This document shows, piece after piece, positions 2,645 through 29,214 of a stretch of DNA of 38,107 bases. A program made the translations under genes and the position numbers. The stretch comes from a virus. Each line of letters opens with the position of its first letter. The first letter of the stretch is position 1. The stretch is taken from positions 1 to 38,107 of IMG/VR virus record IMGVR_UViG_3300036860_000750. The stretch is one strand, 5' to 3'. The notes under the pieces were generated by a model, which was not told the origin of the DNA, made no database searches, and saw only the letters and a list, made by a program, of their open reading frames with translations.

Positions 2645-3300
2645 GGCCGGTTCTCCGGCAGAGAACTTCCCGCCAGCGCCGGCGGCGGCCGCTCGCCGCT
2701 CCGCTCCTCGGGCGGCACGAAGGCGTAGCCCAGGACGCGGAGGACGTCGGCTTCTTCCGGCGTCGGCACCGCGATCGCGTACTCGGCCAGGTCGGCGGTG
2801 TAGGGCGCCGGCAGCCGCCAGAGCCGGCCGTCGCGGAAGAAGAAGCCCCGCGGCAGCCAGCCGCCCTGGCTGCGCTTGAGCACGAGCTGCTGGTTGAACT
2901 CGGCCGGGCCGGTGCGGATCAACAGCAGGCAGCCCCACGTCCGCGGCTCGCACGAGAACAGATCCAGCGCCACGCCGCGGTAGGTCAGCCGCTTGTAGCG
3001 CGGGCCGATCGCCTGGCGGCCGTTCTTGTCCAGGCGCGGTGCGAACGTGCCCTCGGCGAGCAGCTCCCGGCAGCGCTCGGCGAGCAGGTCGACCGCGACC
3101 CGAACCTGGCCGAACAGGTCCGCCGGCCGCTGCTCGTAGCGCGGGATGCAGACGACCTCGAGGTCGCCGACGTCGGGCTTGCGCCTCCTGATCGACCCGG
3201 CCACCTCGAGGCGCTCGGTGGCGGTCTCGAGCAGGCGCACGACCTCGGCGGCGAGCACCTCGGCCTCGGCCAGCGGCATGCGCCGCCTCTCCTCGGCCAT
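2641..3300 (-). CDS. DNA polymerase beta-like (family X) nucleotidyltransferase, 219 aa
   Basis: The core reads VAGSIRRRKPDVGDLEVV (residues 33-50). This is the GS-x(9)-D-x-E/D signature of Pol-beta-type nucleotidyltransferases, with predicted metal ligands D46 and E48 and a third acid at D113 in GVALDLF. FNQQLVLKRSQGGWLP (about 135-150) matches the later palm block. The protein lacks the N-terminal 8-kDa and thumb domains of full Pol X (about 330 residues). It may fill short gaps or act on RNA or nucleotides. It lies next to thyX, in a DNA-metabolism context. Confidence 0.8.
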   Translation of the reverse strand: MAEERRRMPLAEAEVLAAEVVRLLETATERLEVAGSIRRRKPDVGDLEVVCIPRYEQRPADLFGQVRVAVDLLAERCRELLAEGTFAPRLDKNGRQAIGPRYKRLTYRGVALDLFSCEPRTWGCLLLIRTGPAEFNQQLVLKRSQGGWLPRGFFFRDGRLWRLPAPYTADLAEYAIAVPTPEEADVLRVLGYAFVPPEERSGERPPPALAGSSLPENRP

Positions 3301-4055
3301 CAGCCGACCGCGAGCATCGCGAAGCTGTGCGGGAAGTGCGGCCGGCCCAGCTCCCGCACGGCGGCTGCGTAGGCGACGATCTCGGCCTGCGCCGTCGTCT
3401 CGTCGAGCCGCTCGTCGAGGAAGTGCAAGACCGCCAGGAGCGAGGCCGTCCAGCGCCAGCGCACGTACAGGCCGTAGGCCGGCAGGAACAGGCGCGCCTG
3501 CTCAGCGCAGATCCCGGCCCCGAGCGCGCGCCGGTGGGTCGCCGCCGCGTGGGCCTGGTGCGCGCCCAGGATCTCCGTCCAGATGCCGGCCTCCGGCAGC
3601 GGTCCGCCGCTGCCCTGCTTCTTGCTCTCGGGCGAGGCGCGCCAGGCGGCCGGGCAGTAGAACGCGGGCTCTTCGGTCACGTACCGCCGGCTGGCCTCGT
3701 TCCAGGCCACGCCGTCCTCGTCGACTAGGTGGGCCGAGCCGACGGCGTAGCGGTGCCACTGGCGCGCGATCATCAGCGGCGCGCGCACCTCGAACGCCAG
3801 GACGGAGTGCCGGAACGGGCTGTTCTCGACGCGCCGGAGCAGGAAGTTGATGAGCCCGACGTCGCGCTTGCCCAGCTCGCGCACCTCTTTCTCGAACGAG
3901 GCGCGGGCGGCGTTGACGACCTGCACCTCGTGCTCGTCGGTGCCGAAGTGCTTGAGCACGCCGACCAGCCGGACGTAGCCGGCGTCCAGGACCGGCACCA
4001 GACCGCCGGGCGCGCCCTCATCCGTGCCGCGCAGCCCCGCGTCGCCGCCCGCCAT
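3300..4055 (-). CDS. thyX: FAD-dependent thymidylate synthase ThyX, 251 aa
   Basis: ThyX makes dTMP from dUMP with methylene-tetrahydrofolate, FAD and NADPH. The signature is spread over RQWHRYAVGS (98-107) and NEASRRYV (119-126), separated by an 11-residue insert; the classical RHRxxSxNExSxRY is compact. VNAARASFEKE (48-58) and a C-terminal FLDERLDETTAQAEI block also fit the family. The ATG at 4053-4055 overlaps the upstream stop as TGATG. A phage thyX boosts dTMP supply for replication. Confidence 0.9.
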   Translation of the reverse strand: MAGGDAGLRGTDEGAPGGLVPVLDAGYVRLVGVLKHFGTDEHEVQVVNAARASFEKEVRELGKRDVGLINFLLRRVENSPFRHSVLAFEVRAPLMIARQWHRYAVGSAHLVDEDGVAWNEASRRYVTEEPAFYCPAAWRASPESKKQGSGGPLPEAGIWTEILGAHQAHAAATHRRALGAGICAEQARLFLPAYGLYVRWRWTASLLAVLHFLDERLDETTAQAEIVAYAAAVRELGRPHFPHSFAMLAVG

Positions 4056-4285
4056 CACCGGCCCTGTTCCGTACGCCGCGGCCGCACCTCGTCCCGGCGC
4101 CGCTCCGCCAGCCGCGCCGACCGGCGCCCGAGCCAGCGGAAGAAGCCCACCCCGTAGCGCGCCAGCACGGCCGCGCCGCCGCGCTGCCCGATCGCCTCGT
4201 AGCGCGAGCGCCCGTGGCGCGCCGCGGTGGCCTCCCCGCCGCGCCGGCCGGCCTCGCGGCAGCTCACCCCGCCGCCGCCGACCAT
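4055..4285 (-). CDS. Small KGG-motif-like basic protein, 76 aa
   Basis: The N-terminal half repeats an RGG pattern: REAGRRGGEATAARHG and YEAIGQRGGAAVLARYG. These are degenerate forms of the KGG repeats of GsiB-type stress and DNA-associated proteins. The rest is strongly basic (FFRWLGRRSARLAERRRDE). No enzyme motif is present. The gene overlaps its upstream neighbour by 22 bp. A nucleic-acid-binding role is an inference from charge alone. Confidence 0.6.
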   Translation of the reverse strand: MVGGGGVSCREAGRRGGEATAARHGRSRYEAIGQRGGAAVLARYGVGFFRWLGRRSARLAERRRDEVRPRRTEQGR

Positions 4286-4446
4286 CGGCCTCCCCCGAGC
4301 ACCCAGCCCACCAGCGCGCCAAGCAGCGCCAGGACGCCGTAGAACGCGGCCAGTCCCAGGCGCCGCCGGCGCCGCCGGCGGCGCAGCGCCAGCGTGTACA
4401 GGCTGCGCAGGACCAGCGGGTCGGCGTGCGCCTTCACTTCGGCCAT
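4264..4446 (-). CDS. Single-pass membrane protein, 60 aa
   Basis: A run of eight arginines (residues 22-29) is followed by LGLAAFYGVLALLGALVGWV, a clear transmembrane helix with a positive-inside N-terminal flank, then a short glycine-rich tail. ATG at 4444-4446 has GGAGAGAGGG just upstream. No family is recognised. It could anchor replication proteins at the membrane or act as a small host-modifying protein; neither is shown. Confidence 0.65.
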   Translation of the reverse strand: MAEVKAHADPLVLRSLYTLALRRRRRRRRLGLAAFYGVLALLGALVGWVLGGGRWSAAAG

Positions 4447-4610: not shown

Positions 4611-5495
4611 TCAGACCTCCCCTTTCGGCGCCCGCGGTAGGTCGGCCCCCCAGCCGACGTCGTCGGGGTCGTAGGTTTGCGCGCCCCAATCCGCCGGTCT
4701 CACGTCGCTCGCGGAGGGCGGATCACGCGCCGAGCGCAGCTCGCCCAGGTGCTTGCCGATCGCCCGCGGCGTGCAGCCGACCGTGAACGCGGCCCGGTAG
4801 CGCTCGACCAACCGGGGCACCTCCTCGGGGCTCACCGGCGGGTCGGCGGCCAGCAAATCGCCGATCGCCGCGTCCCATCCGCTCTTCTCGCCCCGGGTGT
4901 TCGGCGCGAACCCGAGCGCGTCGACCAGCGCCGTTCCGAGCGCTGCGCCGGCCTGATCGAGATCTTCGGGTCCGTCCCGTTCTCGTTCAGGTTCGTCGCC
5001 CCGCCCCCCACGAACCTGTATGAGTGCATGGCTGGCCGGCTCTTCTTCCCGGGGACGGGGTACGGGGACGGGTACGGGTACGGGGTCGTGACGCGCGTCA
5101 CGATCCGACTGTGACGGCGTCACGGTCGCCGTCACGCTCGCGTCACGGTCGCCGTCGGGGTGCGCGTCACGGCCGGCGCGGCCGTTGGCGCGGTAACGCG
5201 CGGCGCGGTCGGCCGCGGTGGGATCGGCTTTGTCGTTGTACTGGGCGAAGTCGTGGATCGCGTAGCCGTCGCCGTCGCGGTCCCAGCCGCGTTTGGCGAC
5301 CAGCTCGGCGATCGTGCGCCTCGTGCCCTTGATCGCCCGGACGAGGTAGAGCGCCTGGTCTTCGGTCAAGTAGCCGTGGGTGTGGTGGCGGTTGGCGTAG
5401 GAGATCGAATTGCCCCAGAGGCGGTACGCCTTGTCCGAGAACGACATCACCTTGCCGTTGTCGTAGAGCTGGTCGTCCCAGCGGCCCCACGGCAT
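4611..5495 (-). CDS. Replication initiator-like protein with N-terminal winged helix, 294 aa
   Basis: The N-terminal ~90 residues (MPWGRWDDQLYDNGKVMSFS, AYRLWGNSISYANRHHTHG, DGYAIHDFAQYN) match the winged-helix domain at the front of many phage replication/replisome-organiser proteins. The middle is a low-complexity linker (repeated DRDA and PVPVPVPVP). The C-terminal ~100 residues (GWDAAIGDLLAADPP, FTVGCTPRAIGKHLGEL) look like a small partner-binding domain. No ATPase motif is present, so helicase or polymerase would come from the host. The gene contains iteron-like repeats at 5095-5171, as lambda gene O does. ATG overlaps the HNH stop as TGATG. Confidence 0.75.
   Translation of the reverse strand: MPWGRWDDQLYDNGKVMSFSDKAYRLWGNSISYANRHHTHGYLTEDQALYLVRAIKGTRRTIAELVAKRGWDRDGDGYAIHDFAQYNDKADPTAADRAARYRANGRAGRDAHPDGDRDASVTATVTPSQSDRDARHDPVPVPVPVPRPREEEPASHALIQVRGGRGDEPERERDGPEDLDQAGAALGTALVDALGFAPNTRGEKSGWDAAIGDLLAADPPVSPEEVPRLVERYRAAFTVGCTPRAIGKHLGELRSARDPPSASDVRPADWGAQTYDPDDVGWGADLPRAPKGEV
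4988..5018. repeat. Perfect inverted repeat beside candidate origin
   Basis: CAGGTTCGT (4988-4996) and ACGAACCTG (5010-5018) form a perfect 9-bp inverted repeat with a 13-base loop, inside the replication-protein gene. It is followed by TATGAGTGCATGG, one of the least GC-rich bits of the gene. It may be part of an origin together with the iterons 75 bp away, or a chance coding palindrome. Confidence 0.45.
5095..5176. repeat. Iteron-like repeats inside the initiator gene (candidate origin)
   Basis: GCGTCACG occurs at 5095, 5117, 5140 and 5164, spaced 22, 23 and 24 bp, close to two helical turns. The two central copies extend to the identical 17-mer GCGTCACGGTCGCCGTC. Between 5051 and 5085 there is also a GGGGAC/GGGTAC tandem run that encodes PVPVPVPVP. 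In lambda the origin is a set of iterons inside gene O that bind the O protein. The same arrangement here suggests, but does not prove, an origin. Confidence 0.55.
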
Positions 5496-5869
5496 CACCG
5501 GCCCCCTTTCGCCAGGTTGCACCGGGCATGGGTGGTCTGCAGGTTCGACGGGTCGGAGGTCCCACCGCGGCAGAGGGGCACGATGTGGTCGATGCGCAGG
5601 TGCGCCGGCAAGACCGGCTGACCGCAGATACCGCAGCGCCAGCCGTCGCGCTCGGCGATCGCACGCCGGCGGACTCGGCGCCGTTCCTTGCGCACCGCCA
5701 GCAAGCCCTGCCGGTGCCGGAGCCGCCACTCGAAGTGCGCACGCGACGGGATCTCGCAGAGCCCGAGGCGGATCCACTGCGGCGGTGGCTTCGGCGCCCT
5801 CGCCAGCCGCTCGATCTCAGCCCGCATATCCGGCGGAAACGCGCTCAACGCAAGCACAGGTCGGCTCAT
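5495..5869 (-). CDS. HNH endonuclease, 124 aa
   Basis: The C-terminal half is a zinc-stabilised HNH nuclease: RDGWRCGICGQPVL with CxxC at 79-82, the catalytic DHIVPLCRGG (H95), SNLQTTHARCNLAKGG with N109 and the second metal pair. The N-terminal half is basic and helical and could bind DNA. ATG at 5867-5869 overlaps the upstream stop as ATGA. It lies next to the replication gene rather than next to terS, so a homing or replication-linked role is more likely than a packaging role. Confidence 0.85.
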   Translation of the reverse strand: MSRPVLALSAFPPDMRAEIERLARAPKPPPQWIRLGLCEIPSRAHFEWRLRHRQGLLAVRKERRRVRRRAIAERDGWRCGICGQPVLPAHLRIDHIVPLCRGGTSDPSNLQTTHARCNLAKGGR

Positions 5870-6132
5870 CGGCCCGTCCTCGCTTTCTTCGGGCGGACCG
5901 TCCCCGGCCGCTCGAACCGGACCGTCGCGGCCAGGAGCCGCGGCGGGTGGTACCGGCCATCCCAACGCGCCGCCGACCGCTTCGGCGTCATCACCACCTG
6001 CACGCCGTAGAGCTCGGCCAGCCGGTGGCAGACCTCGAAAAACCGCCCCTTCCAGGCGTCGGCCTGCTCGGCGTGCTCCTGCTCGAGCCAGGCCGCCTCG
6101 GCGCCCGGGACCAAGCGCTGCTCGCCGCTCAC
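5866..6132 (-). CDS. Hypothetical protein, 88 aa
   Basis: GTG start overlaps the upstream stop as GTGA. The first half is a charged helix (EAAWLEQEHAEQADAWKGRF), then FEVCHRLAELYGVQVVMTPKRS and a basic tail with RVRPKK-like residues. No family is recognised. The mixture of helix and basic C-terminus suggests nucleic-acid or protein binding, without further support. Confidence 0.6.
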   Translation of the reverse strand: MSGEQRLVPGAEAAWLEQEHAEQADAWKGRFFEVCHRLAELYGVQVVMTPKRSAARWDGRYHPPRLLAATVRFERPGTVRPKKARTGR

Positions 6133-12497: not shown

Positions 12498-13489
12498 GGG
12501 TTCGCCTCCGCGCGGACGCGGGCGTTGGTGTTCATCGCTTGCACCATCGACGCGTCGCCGGCCGTGAGCCCCGAGCTGCCGGTTCCGGTCAAGGCGACCT
12601 TCTGCCGCCCGCCCGAGTTGGCGCCCACGGCCGTGAACGCCGCCAGGCCGCCGAGCGCCGAGTTGACCGGTCCGAAGTCGCCCGCCGCCGAGACCGTCAC
12701 CGTCGGCGTGATCGCCTTCTCGACCGTCAGGCCGACGATCCAGCAGACGCTGCCGGCGGCGTACGCCTGCCCGATGGTCATCATCTCACCCGTGATCCCG
12801 CTCCCCAGGACCTCGTAGTACCGCTGGCACCGCGCCAGGTCGTCGGCCGGGTGCAGCGGGACGTACGCCATCGCCGCCGCGCCGACCACGAGCGTCGCGT
12901 TGTCGACGTAGAACGTGCCGCTGGCGTTCATGTTCAGCTCGACCTGGAGCACCGTCGCGTCGGCGCGGAGCGGGTTCAGCGTCAGCGTCAGCGTCTCGTA
13001 CGCGCCGCCGCCGGTGTGGTAGCTCCCCTGCGTGCGCGTGAAACCGTCCCAGGCCGAGATCCGGATCGCGTTCGCCACGCTCGCCTTGACCCGGAACGAG
13101 AGCGTGATCGCCCGGCCCCGGAGCTGCGTGACGCCCTCGACGATCTGCAGGAAGTACGACGGCGCCGCGTACGTGCACGTGAGCGCGGCGCAGTAGCCCG
13201 ACGCTGTGTCCACGTCGGCGGTATTGCGGCTCACACTGAGCGTGCTGCCGCCGCCGATCGAGAGCAGCCACCGATCGGCTGAGTACGTGCCGGTCGTGGC
13301 GAAGGGCCCGGTGCCCCGCTGCCAGACCTCGAACCCGGGGTTGGTCAGCAGGTTGTGCTTGGAGTGGGCGTGCAGGACCGCCTCGTCCAGGATGGTCAGC
13401 GCGGCGTTGTGCTGCGTCTTGACGGCGGTGTTGGCGTTGTCGGTGTCCTCGTTGATGGGCAGCGCGAGCTTGGCGGTGTACAGGACCAC
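12494..13489 (-). CDS. Tail fibre / receptor-binding protein, 331 aa
   Basis: N-terminus LPINEDTDNANTAVKTQHNAA resembles a tail-attachment segment. Next comes LLTNPGFEVWQRGTGPFA with YSADRWLL, the front of a carbohydrate-binding jelly-roll seen in phage fibres. The segment AYVPLHPADDLARCQRYYEV is the recurrent linker before the C-terminal domain, which is rich in Ala/Gly/Thr beta strands. It likely binds the host surface. It sits after a second fibre-like gene and a coiled-coil protein. Confidence 0.75.
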   Translation of the reverse strand: MVLYTAKLALPINEDTDNANTAVKTQHNAALTILDEAVLHAHSKHNLLTNPGFEVWQRGTGPFATTGTYSADRWLLSIGGGSTLSVSRNTADVDTASGYCAALTCTYAAPSYFLQIVEGVTQLRGRAITLSFRVKASVANAIRISAWDGFTRTQGSYHTGGGAYETLTLTLNPLRADATVLQVELNMNASGTFYVDNATLVVGAAAMAYVPLHPADDLARCQRYYEVLGSGITGEMMTIGQAYAAGSVCWIVGLTVEKAITPTVTVSAAGDFGPVNSALGGLAAFTAVGANSGGRQKVALTGTGSSGLTAGDASMVQAMNTNARVRAEANP

Positions 13490-14487: not shown

Positions 14488-16068
14488 TCAGACGCCCCAC
14501 TTCGCGGTGTTCCACAGTCCGCTGCCCCAGAGGCCGTAGCCCGTGTCGAACGCGCCCTCACAGCCGAGGTACGCGCGCGCGCTCCGCCCTCCGCCGGCCA
14601 CGACCTTGACCGACTCGACCCACATCTGGCGGGCGAAAGCCGCGCGCCCGTTGATCACCGCGATCCGGTCCGCCACCTCGCGGGGGAGCGCCCCGGCGAT
14701 CAACACGTCGGTCGCCAGCGGCACCTCGATCACCGCGGTCGGCCGGGGCAGCATGCCGCGGGTGACGTAGCCGTTGCAGATGCTCTGCGCGACGAGGTAA
14801 TCGAGCTCGCCCAGGGTGGGCACCGTCAGGGGCTTGGGTCCGTACCGGGCCCGGCTCGCCGCGGTGTCGACCCCGGTGTCGCTCACCTGCGTCGTCGCCG
14901 CGACCCGCGCGAGCTTGCCGCGCACCTGCAGGCCGGTCAGGGTCGCGCCGCCGGCCCCCGCGGTCAGCGTCAGCGTCACGAACGGCCCCGAGGTGCGGTC
15001 GAAGACGGCGCTCGCCAGAGACCCGGCCGTGACCGTGTAGTCCGTGCCGGCCGCGAGCGCGACGACGCTGGCGATCGGGTCGTCGCCGGTCGGTTGGACC
15101 TGGAAGGGCCGCGCCTCGCTCGCGCCCAGGGTGACCGTGGCGCCGAACGACCAGAAGGCGGCGTCGGCCGCGTCGACGGCCCGGCGCACGTGGGCGATCG
15201 AGCAGCGGTTGACGATGTTCTGCTCGCCCGAGGCCGGGTCCCAGGACGCGAACCAGGGATCGGCGCCGTCGTCCGTATCCCGGAAGGTGGCCTGGACGCT
15301 GTTCGAGCGGGCCTCGGCCGCTTCCGCCCCGCGGCGCTTGAAGGTCGTCTTCCCGCTCGCGTCGTCGTAGAGCCGCGCGCCGGGCCCTTCCGAGGCCCAG
15401 ATGCGCAGCGCCAGGTCGAACAGCTCGTCGGTCGGCCTGATCCAGAACCAGTTGAGGATCGTGTCGCCGACGTCGAAGTTGCGCAGGCCCGTGTCGGTCA
15501 GGCCGGCCGCGTCCAGCACGTAGCCGAGGGCCACGCTGGTCCTGACGCCGTTCGCCTGCGTGCCGTCGCCGTACAGCGGACTCGAGTAGCCGGTCTTCCC
15601 GACTAGGCGCGCCAGCTGGGAGAGCGCCCGGAACGCGACCGACTGACCGCCCCACTCCGCGCGCGGCACGAGCTCGGTCACGTAGCCGTGCGCGACCGGG
15701 TAGGTCGTCGCCCCGGCCAGGATCCGCCACCGGGCGGCGTGGCCGACGTCGACGTTGGGGTACAGCGGCGAGCCGGCCGCGGGCGAGTAGTCGCCCGACC
15801 GGTTGTCGAGCGCGAAGGTGGTCTCGTTGGCCAGCGGGGGGGACTGGCTGGCGATGGCCGACCGGCCCCGCTCGGCGCTCACCCCCGGCTCGGCGAGCAC
15901 GCGCGTCGAGACGTCCTCGGGCGAGACGATCGCGGTTCCGAGATCGCCGACCGTGAAGGCGGCCAGGCCGGCGACGGTGTAGCCGACGAGCGCGCCGACC
16001 GTGCCGTCGGTCTCGAACGTCCCCCCGCCCGAGAAATCGACCGCCACCTCGTGCAGGAGCGTGCTCAC
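14488..16068 (-). CDS. Minor tail (tail-tip) protein, 526 aa
   Basis: GTG start overlaps the tape-measure stop as GTGA. Near residues 80-110 it has LANETTFALDNRSGDYSP and SPLYPNVDVGHAARWR, blocks common in actinophage-type minor tail proteins. The body is beta-rich, and the end is a Gly/Trp pattern (GYGLWGSGLWNTAKWGV). By order (tape measure, then this) it is the distal-tail or baseplate protein. Confidence 0.72.
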   Translation of the reverse strand: MSTLLHEVAVDFSGGGTFETDGTVGALVGYTVAGLAAFTVGDLGTAIVSPEDVSTRVLAEPGVSAERGRSAIASQSPPLANETTFALDNRSGDYSPAAGSPLYPNVDVGHAARWRILAGATTYPVAHGYVTELVPRAEWGGQSVAFRALSQLARLVGKTGYSSPLYGDGTQANGVRTSVALGYVLDAAGLTDTGLRNFDVGDTILNWFWIRPTDELFDLALRIWASEGPGARLYDDASGKTTFKRRGAEAAEARSNSVQATFRDTDDGADPWFASWDPASGEQNIVNRCSIAHVRRAVDAADAAFWSFGATVTLGASEARPFQVQPTGDDPIASVVALAAGTDYTVTAGSLASAVFDRTSGPFVTLTLTAGAGGATLTGLQVRGKLARVAATTQVSDTGVDTAASRARYGPKPLTVPTLGELDYLVAQSICNGYVTRGMLPRPTAVIEVPLATDVLIAGALPREVADRIAVINGRAAFARQMWVESVKVVAGGGRSARAYLGCEGAFDTGYGLWGSGLWNTAKWGV

Positions 16069-27823: not shown

Positions 27824-29214
27824 ACCGAGGCCCATCCGCCGCCGCGCGCCAGGTCGTTGAACGCGGCGGACGACGCGTCCATCTGGTCGTCGTGCGGCCA
27901 GTCGGGCTGGTTATGGAGCTGCGTCGCGTACCGCTCGTTCCAGGGCGCACGCAGCAGCTTGACGTTGCCGGCCTCCGCCTGGGCCGCGAAGGGGAGCGCC
28001 CGCTGGATCTTGTCGCCCGACGGCGCCCGGGCGCGCGCGTCGTAGCCGGAGAGCGCGGTGACCATCTCGTGCGCCACGATCAGCCCGCTCGCGCCCGGCT
28101 CCTGCTCGAGCCGGACCGCGCACTCCCGGCCGTCCTGCGCCGCGGTGGTGAGCACGAGCCTCTTGACCGCGGCCGGCCCCTCCTGCACCTCGATCACGTC
28201 CTCGACGTAGTAGACGCCCTCGACCGCGCGCATCTTCACCCCGGCGGTCGAGTCCGGGTCGTCGCCGGACAGCTTCTTCGCCGTGGCCGCCAGGTCCCAG
28301 GCGCGCACGGCCCGCCCGCCGGCGGGCACGGCGTCGACGACCCCGAACCAGCCGCGCGAGAAGACCTTGCCGGCGGTCGGCCTGATCTTCCAGTTGCCGC
28401 CCCGCTCGCGGTCGCCGAGCAGCCGCTCGCGCTCGAGGCGCGGCAGGGCCATCAGGTTGGCCAGGTAGCCCGGGTCGCGTCGCATCAGGATCGGGTTGTC
28501 CCAGAACGTCGAGAGGACGAAGGTGACCGACTTGGGCGGCGCCTCCGGGAAGCGCGCGCGCAGCTCCTCGGGGTCGTCGGCCCAGACGATCTCGTCGTCG
28601 ACCCGCACCATCCAGCGGAGCACGCCGGAGCGCTCGGGCAGCGCGTAGCCGTCCTCGCCGATCCACCAGTCGACGAAGCGCGCGACCCAGGAATCGGCGT
28701 CGGCGTTGCAGGCCGCGCGCACGTAGGGCCGCACGCCCGAGAGCGAGCGGTTGCGGCTGAGCAGGTAGAAGAACTGGCCCTCGCTGAAGTGGGTCAGCTC
28801 GTCCCACTCGAGCAGGGCGACCTCGCTGCCGTGCCAGGCGAGCTTGTCCGTCTCGTGCTGCAGGTGCGCGAACGTCACGCCGGCGCCGCTGGGGAACGTC
28901 CACTCCAGGCGCGTCTCGGACGGGCGCGCGCCCAGGTGCGGGTAGAGCTCGACCGCCTTGTCCCAGAGCCCGCCCTCGTTGCGTATCTGCGGGGAGGTGC
29001 GCCGGAAGACGACCGCGCCGAAGAGGGGGTTGTGCACGTGCCGGAGCGGCTCGAGCAAGAGCCCGAAGGTCTTACCGCCGCCGGCGGCGCCGCCGATGAC
29101 GGCGATGTCGGCGCTGCTGGCCAGGAAGCGCGATTGCGGCCCCGGCTGCGGGCCGATCCGGCGGACCGGCGCCTCGGCGCCGCCGCGGCCCGAGGCCCTA
29201 GTCGGCGCGAGCAC
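27820..29214 (-). CDS. terL: Terminase large subunit, 464 aa
   Basis: Walker A GGAAGGGKT (41-49), Walker B VALLEWDEL with catalytic D138-E139, coupling-type motif RAACNADADSWV, and a nuclease domain with AWDLAATAKK and the C-terminal PWNERYATQLHNQPDWPHDD acids. The ATPase pumps DNA through the portal and the nuclease cuts genome units. Overlaps TerS by 17 bp; GTG start. Confidence 0.93.
   Translation of the reverse strand: MLAPTRASGRGGAEAPVRRIGPQPGPQSRFLASSADIAVIGGAAGGGKTFGLLLEPLRHVHNPLFGAVVFRRTSPQIRNEGGLWDKAVELYPHLGARPSETRLEWTFPSGAGVTFAHLQHETDKLAWHGSEVALLEWDELTHFSEGQFFYLLSRNRSLSGVRPYVRAACNADADSWVARFVDWWIGEDGYALPERSGVLRWMVRVDDEIVWADDPEELRARFPEAPPKSVTFVLSTFWDNPILMRRDPGYLANLMALPRLERERLLGDRERGGNWKIRPTAGKVFSRGWFGVVDAVPAGGRAVRAWDLAATAKKLSGDDPDSTAGVKMRAVEGVYYVEDVIEVQEGPAAVKRLVLTTAAQDGRECAVRLEQEPGASGLIVAHEMVTALSGYDARARAPSGDKIQRALPFAAQAEAGNVKLLRAPWNERYATQLHNQPDWPHDDQMDASSAAFNDLARGGGWASV

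Follow-up and report, generated by a model that had tools for sequence, protein, structure and literature searches.

The window, the whole 38,107-nucleotide stretch of viral DNA that was analysed, carries on its minus strand a replication initiator gene encoding a protein of 294 amino acids. The protein matches the replication initiation protein family PHROG_2447 (E=7e-19) over residues 1–172, which comprise the N-domain and the linker. In the AlphaFold model, residues 11–80 have pLDDT values of 94–98, the linker (approximately residues 111–176) has low values, and the C-terminal part is helical. The PHROG_2447 match and the predicted fold bear out the first-pass annotation, which had described the product as a winged-helix initiator-like protein. 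None of the Pfam families, Phage_rep_O included, matches the protein; a PDB sequence search returned nothing useful, and Foldseek gave no match to the model at E < 0.001. A second Foldseek look yielded mostly generic winged-helix domains as structural neighbours; one neighbour, the plasmid initiator 4pta (Z 5.8), was considered too weak to rely on.

An HNH endonuclease gene (5495–5965, minus strand) lies immediately upstream of the initiator gene, and Yvonnetastic, Blett and Appa also have HNH genes next to the initiator. A thymidylate synthase gene (3300–4322, minus strand; PHROG_85, E=2e-46) is located nearby. In several relatives, the initiator is adjoined by replication genes, namely those for a DnaB-like helicase, a helicase loader and SSB. 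The features of the locus are as follows:

4611–5495, minus strand: replication initiator gene, 294 amino acids, with a winged-helix N-domain, a disordered linker and a helical C-domain
5256–5468, minus strand: part encoding the predicted winged-helix DNA-binding domain (residues 10–80), assigned from the order of helices and strands and from structural neighbours
5165–5171, plus strand: iteron core CGTCACG, copy 1 (coding strand CGTGACG), read RD
5141–5147, plus strand: iteron core CGTCACG, copy 2, read RD
5130–5136, plus strand: iteron core CGTCACG, copy 3, overlooked in the first-pass annotation, read VT
5118–5124, plus strand: iteron core CGTCACG, copy 4, read VT
5096–5102, plus strand: iteron core CGTCACG, copy 5, read RD
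5087–5093, minus strand: reverse-oriented iteron core, which forms a perfect palindrome (5086–5103) with copy 5
5051–5085, plus strand: G-run array GGGGACGGGGTACGGGGACGGGTACGGGTACGGGG; CCCGTA-type hexamers on the coding strand, read VPVPVPVP
5019–5050, no strand assigned: stretch between the array and the inverted repeat; GC 0.60 in the 20 bp next to the array
4988–5018, no strand assigned: inverted repeat with 9-bp arms and a 13-nt loop

The iterons, the array and the inverted repeat are all located inside the part of the gene that codes for the disordered linker. The motif GCGTCACG had been placed at 5095, 5117, 5140 and 5164, and all four positions were found again, as were the 17 identical bases common to the copies at 5117 and 5140. 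The step of 22–24 bp (about two helical turns) that had been claimed for these copies has to be revised to one helical turn, or 11–12 bp, given the fifth CGTCACG at 5130. The five cores are spaced 22, 12, 11 and 24 bp apart and form a lattice with a step of about one helical turn, in which two positions are empty. Copy 5 and a reverse iteron copy (5087–5094) together make up the perfect palindrome, which is 18 bp long. By itself GCGTCACG is not rare, with 10 matches in the whole window against 6.3 expected; half of these matches (5/10, both strands) are packed into 85 bp. Only one other place in the record, a trivial GCC tract, holds an 8-mer that is present five times per 100-bp window, and the lattice score reaches its maximum of 38 at the iterons, compared with 14 at the next-best place in a scan of the window.

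The array at 5051–5085, which the first-pass annotation did not mention, is the only place in the window where six GGG runs follow one another in a chain. It is hexameric and irregular. Hexamer runs of another type (TCAGCG) occur in the tail gene region at 12976–12995 and 14963–14978. The perfect 9-bp inverted repeat had been reported correctly (arms 4988–4996 and 5010–5018) and reaches p=0.03 by synonymous permutation, but it is weak by itself because such repeats are common in the window, where 47 perfect inverted repeats of at least 9 bp were listed (loops up to 20, some nested). The strongest one in the window is at 1910–1949, with 16-bp arms and an 8-nt loop. The repeat had also been said to lie with the part of the gene that is lowest in GC. 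However, the 40-bp windows with the lowest values start at 5431 (GC 0.525) and 4956 (0.575), and the one starting at 5011 has a GC of 0.60. The stretch between the array and the inverted repeat (5019–5050) could conceivably serve as an unwinding site.

The iteron word falls in two codon frames, giving RD three times and VT twice. When synonymous codons were permuted within the gene with the protein sequence held fixed, CGTGACGC was seen five times compared with 0.94 expected (p=0.0006), and the most-repeated 8-mer in a word-blind version of the same permutation gave p=0.012. These computations show a constraint at the DNA level beyond the protein sequence. Chains of C runs by themselves were rejected as a signal, being mostly due to proline codons; their tandem period exceeds the permutation.

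A tblastn search with the N-domain retrieved 89 phage records (Gordonia, Mycobacterium, Microbacterium, Propionibacterium, Streptomyces and Arthrobacter). The N-domain of Gudmit was used for further scans because the alignment query was too divergent, and yielded 80 viral and 25 genome loci. A close relative of the window protein or of its N-domain was not found in viral contigs, so the evolution of the window's own iteron copies cannot be followed. Most of the approximately 100 relatives, which are from actinobacterial phages and prophages, have a common linker layout: iterons on an 11–12 bp lattice are followed by an array and then by an AT-richer stretch, often with a hairpin. A comparison with related phages for conserved iterons had been suggested; what is kept is the 11–12 bp lattice, while the words vary by subgroup (CGTGAC, CGAAGC, CGAATC, AGCAAA, CCGAAC and GTAGAC). 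The autocorrelation of 83 linkers has peaks at lags 11, 12, 22–24, 35, 36, 46 and 47. In 71 dereplicated relatives, 811 linker matches were counted at lags 11, 12 and 22–24, compared with a permutation mean of 236 (50 permutations, highest 291), whereas the control lags stayed at background (143 vs 132 expected); the protein sequence was again held fixed, and shared ancestry is only partly corrected in these family tests.

The relatives' arrays consist of CCCGA/CCCGT pentamers or CCCGTA hexamers, and the pentamer arrays are read as peptides such as PDPTRPDPT or PSRPVPSRP. An array of 5- or 6-mers of at least 14 bp is present in 52 of the 71 dereplicated relatives, with a permutation p < 0.05 in 43. 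The starts of the pentamer arrays use all three codon frames (21/12/12), and 68 such arrays were found in 73 kb of initiator genes compared with 3 in 213 kb of flanks, so that they are restricted to the initiator. The C-rich array is absent or built from a different unit in several relatives, and none was found in Aegeus and SF3. The 20 bp after the array have a GC of 0.488 compared with 0.600 expected, with lower values in 56 of 59 dereplicated relatives. Perfect hairpins often follow, with arms of 9–12 bp and loops of the TAAC, TAC or TAAA type; the mean arm of the post-array hairpins is 7.0 compared with 5.3 by permutation (p < 0.05 in 25 of 83). The TAAC/TAC-type loop is recurrent in five of the loci (L030, L072, L073, L054 and L105), and hairpins of this kind may be a priming or protein site. 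Based on sequence comparison, the window array appears to be the counterpart of the CCCGA/CCCGT pentamer arrays, and its inverted repeat may tentatively be equated with the post-array hairpin, although it is located 32 bp from the array and has a long loop. The window displays the post-array GC dip in part only, being mildly less GC-rich there, and many relatives illustrate the post-array elements better than it does.

The layout is also found outside the initiator frame. In Propionibacterium phage E6, this frame stops early and the iterons continue beyond its end; the array CCCCGTACCCGTACCCGTACCC lies past the initiator end in a small annotated frame, gp51, with a different reading. The same array is found in B22 in a stretch without an annotated gene. 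In Arthrobacter phage Sonali, a short initiator is followed by a 190-bp gap that contains three copies of GCAATGC, with spacings of 12 and 24 bp, as well as an array ACAGACAGACAGACATACATAC. The lattice score alone was rejected as an origin mark, as protein repeats outscore the site in E6 and B22 and the initiator is not the top-scoring place in Appa, Gudmit and Melba. The repeats in E6 (L121) are dense, lie in gp39 and gp40 (28290–28460 and 28980–29130), are read as alanine-rich sequence and outscore the origin on the lattice. The array is a more specific origin mark than the lattice score. GC skew, which had been suggested as a sign of the origin, gave no consistent signal and was abandoned as a marker; its extremum falls at the origin only in E6, where it is a maximum.

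In-gene phage origins are already known from lambda O, Tuc2009, TP901-1 and SPP1. The replisome organizers Rep of the lactococcal phage Tuc2009 and ORF13 of TP901-1 have been shown by experiment to bind direct-repeat regions in their own genes, which are the phage origin (PMC8965321), and the Tuc2009 record annotates the Rep gene as containing the origin. The N-domain of Tuc2009 Rep (Rep2009, ORF16) is judged homologous to the winged-helix-type N-domain of the window initiator family, with an hhalign probability of 91% between the two profiles (E=9e-7, 68 columns). The Tuc2009 gene, like the window, has a lattice and then a short-repeat array: CAACCAA-type iterons with spacings of 22 and 11 bp precede AGGAT/AGGTT pentamers. 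In 32 dereplicated relatives, Tuc2009-like ones included, autocorrelation lags of 11, 22, 33–35 and 44 were found for the iterons and lags of 5, 10, 15, 20, 25 and 30 for the array. Tuc2009 and TP901-1 differ from the window in their low-GC hosts, in the iteron words CAACCAAATG, in the array units AGGAT and TAGGT, in a lattice step of 11 bp rather than 11–12 bp, and in a coding-strand array that is purine-rich rather than C-rich. Linkers such as RLGKDRLG and IEENRIEE are read from pentamer arrays in initiators of Firmicutes phages (L126 7096–7878, L127–L195), which extends the effect beyond actinobacterial phages.

The likeness to lambda O drawn by the first-pass annotation is fitting as regards the manner of working, and the permutation test applied to the window gene is also passed by lambda O. 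Its origin likewise lies within the initiator gene, after the part for the N-terminal DNA-binding domain, and has four iterons 20–24 bp apart with AT-rich DNA adjoining. In contrast to the window, lambda O has 19-bp iteron units, a short-repeat array was not found in it, and its N-domain is Phage_rep_O, which the window initiator does not match. A profile comparison between the window initiator family and the lambda O N-domain gave no link; L071, which is distantly related to the window gene, has its C-terminal domain in common with lambda O (41% over 51 aa). By these comparisons, Tuc2009 Rep appears to be nearer than lambda O to the window initiator. According to its published description, gene 38 of SPP1 (gp38, oriL) likewise contains direct repeats, together with an AT-rich unwinding region (PMC6316719). 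One study proposes that mycobacteriophages may have an origin inside repA or immediately upstream of it (PMC7157519). Searches of the open-access literature gave no account of CCCGA repeats, of the lattice-plus-array architecture or of its spread, and no mapped in-gene origin for actinobacterial phages or prophages.

The permutation tests, the family lattice and the Tuc2009 homology support the first-pass proposal of an origin inside the initiator gene. We estimate at roughly 0.87 the probability that approximately 5019–5171, in the linker-coding part, is the replication origin of the phage and works in the following manner, in which lambda and Tuc2009 serve as the analogy for iteron binding and for the opening of adjacent DNA. 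The winged-helix N-domain would bind the CGTCACG iterons one helical turn apart, and the initiator would assemble cooperatively on one face of the DNA. This assembly would strain and melt the adjoining stretch, and the short-repeat array would then be held by more initiator, probably as a single strand. The C-domain, or a partner or neighbouring protein, would bring the replicative helicase. The layout would then be a sequence rule by which the origin can be pointed out in many phages and prophages of actinobacteria.

Short repeats of this kind have been described at other origins: the 3-nt DnaA-trio and the 5-nt repeats of V. cholerae ori2 (RctB) lie beside double-strand sites and are bound as single strands (PMC10797057), and the DnaD recognition element, with paired TnnT motifs, is also bound as a single strand (PMC10201434). 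The DnaA-trio, the DnaD element and ori2 are a possible model for the phage array, although the initiators differ. In the model that we favour by this analogy, the array would be a comparable single-strand ladder. Distant phages from many Gram-positive hosts have the same layout, among them Tuc2009 with its experimentally mapped origin. The short-repeat array, of which the kind but not the sequence is conserved between distant hosts, is a well-defined candidate for a new type of origin element. We put at somewhat below even odds the wider proposal that phages of high- and low-GC Gram-positive hosts have a widespread class of origin in which the linker of a winged-helix initiator encodes the one-turn iteron lattice followed by a 4–6-nt ladder, and in which this ladder is such an element. 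The ladder would correspond in phages to the DnaA-trio, would be held single-stranded by the initiator or by its DnaD/DnaT-like C-domain and would set the direction of helicase loading.

Within the origin reading, the array could instead, with low probability, act mainly as a G-quadruplex or i-motif that separates the strands or pauses the polymerase. The six GGG runs in the window have loops of 2–3 nt and meet the sequence pattern of at least four runs, and GGGTC or GGGAC repeats are present in most actinobacterial relatives. This function cannot be the shared one because the Tuc2009-type arrays of Firmicutes phages (AGGAT, AGAAG and AGAAT) and that of Sonali (CAGA) contain no comparable GGG runs; a G-quadruplex may be a lineage-specific addition in high-GC members.

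Iteron arrays also act as operators and centromeres, and a ParB-like gene is close to the initiator in Appa. The iterons might thus be bound by the initiator or a ParB-like protein for autoregulation or segregation while replication starts elsewhere, and sequence data do not distinguish binding from origin firing. We nevertheless regard an operator or partition site as very unlikely, as the counterparts in Tuc2009 and lambda function as origins, an unwinding region is a better match than an operator for the array and the AT-richer stretch by the iterons, and the site lies within the gene, not at its promoter.

Even less probable is that the repeats are a by-product of the protein, in which amino-acid repeats of a flexible, low-complexity Pro/Arg-rich linker would yield DNA repeats. 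The linker is indeed disordered in the model, and VT, RD and PDPTR motifs are recurrent in relatives. The first-pass annotation had itself raised the possibility that DRDA amino-acid repeats in relatives fully explain the DNA repeats; this explanation fails because the word is read both as RDA and as VT and exceeds the synonymous permutation, and in the relatives the excess of linker repeats is found at the lattice lags. Words reappear in more than one frame and in both orientations with a strong surplus over synonymous permutation, the 11-bp spacing is no multiple of three, and B22, E6 and Sonali keep the layout beyond the initiator frame. A protein-level origin of the repeats is therefore largely refuted. 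With the replication origin as the preferred reading, the odd linkers of these initiators (PDPTRPDPT and VPVPVPVP, or RLGKDRLG in Firmicutes phages) would be accounted for by a protein that follows the DNA element.

A recombination, packaging or attachment site that by chance falls within the initiator gene would also be marked by repeats and inverted repeats, but its probability is negligible, as the layout follows the initiator family across hosts, integrase and terminase genes are located elsewhere in related genomes, and the terminase genes of the window are far off, at ~27.8–30.7 kb.
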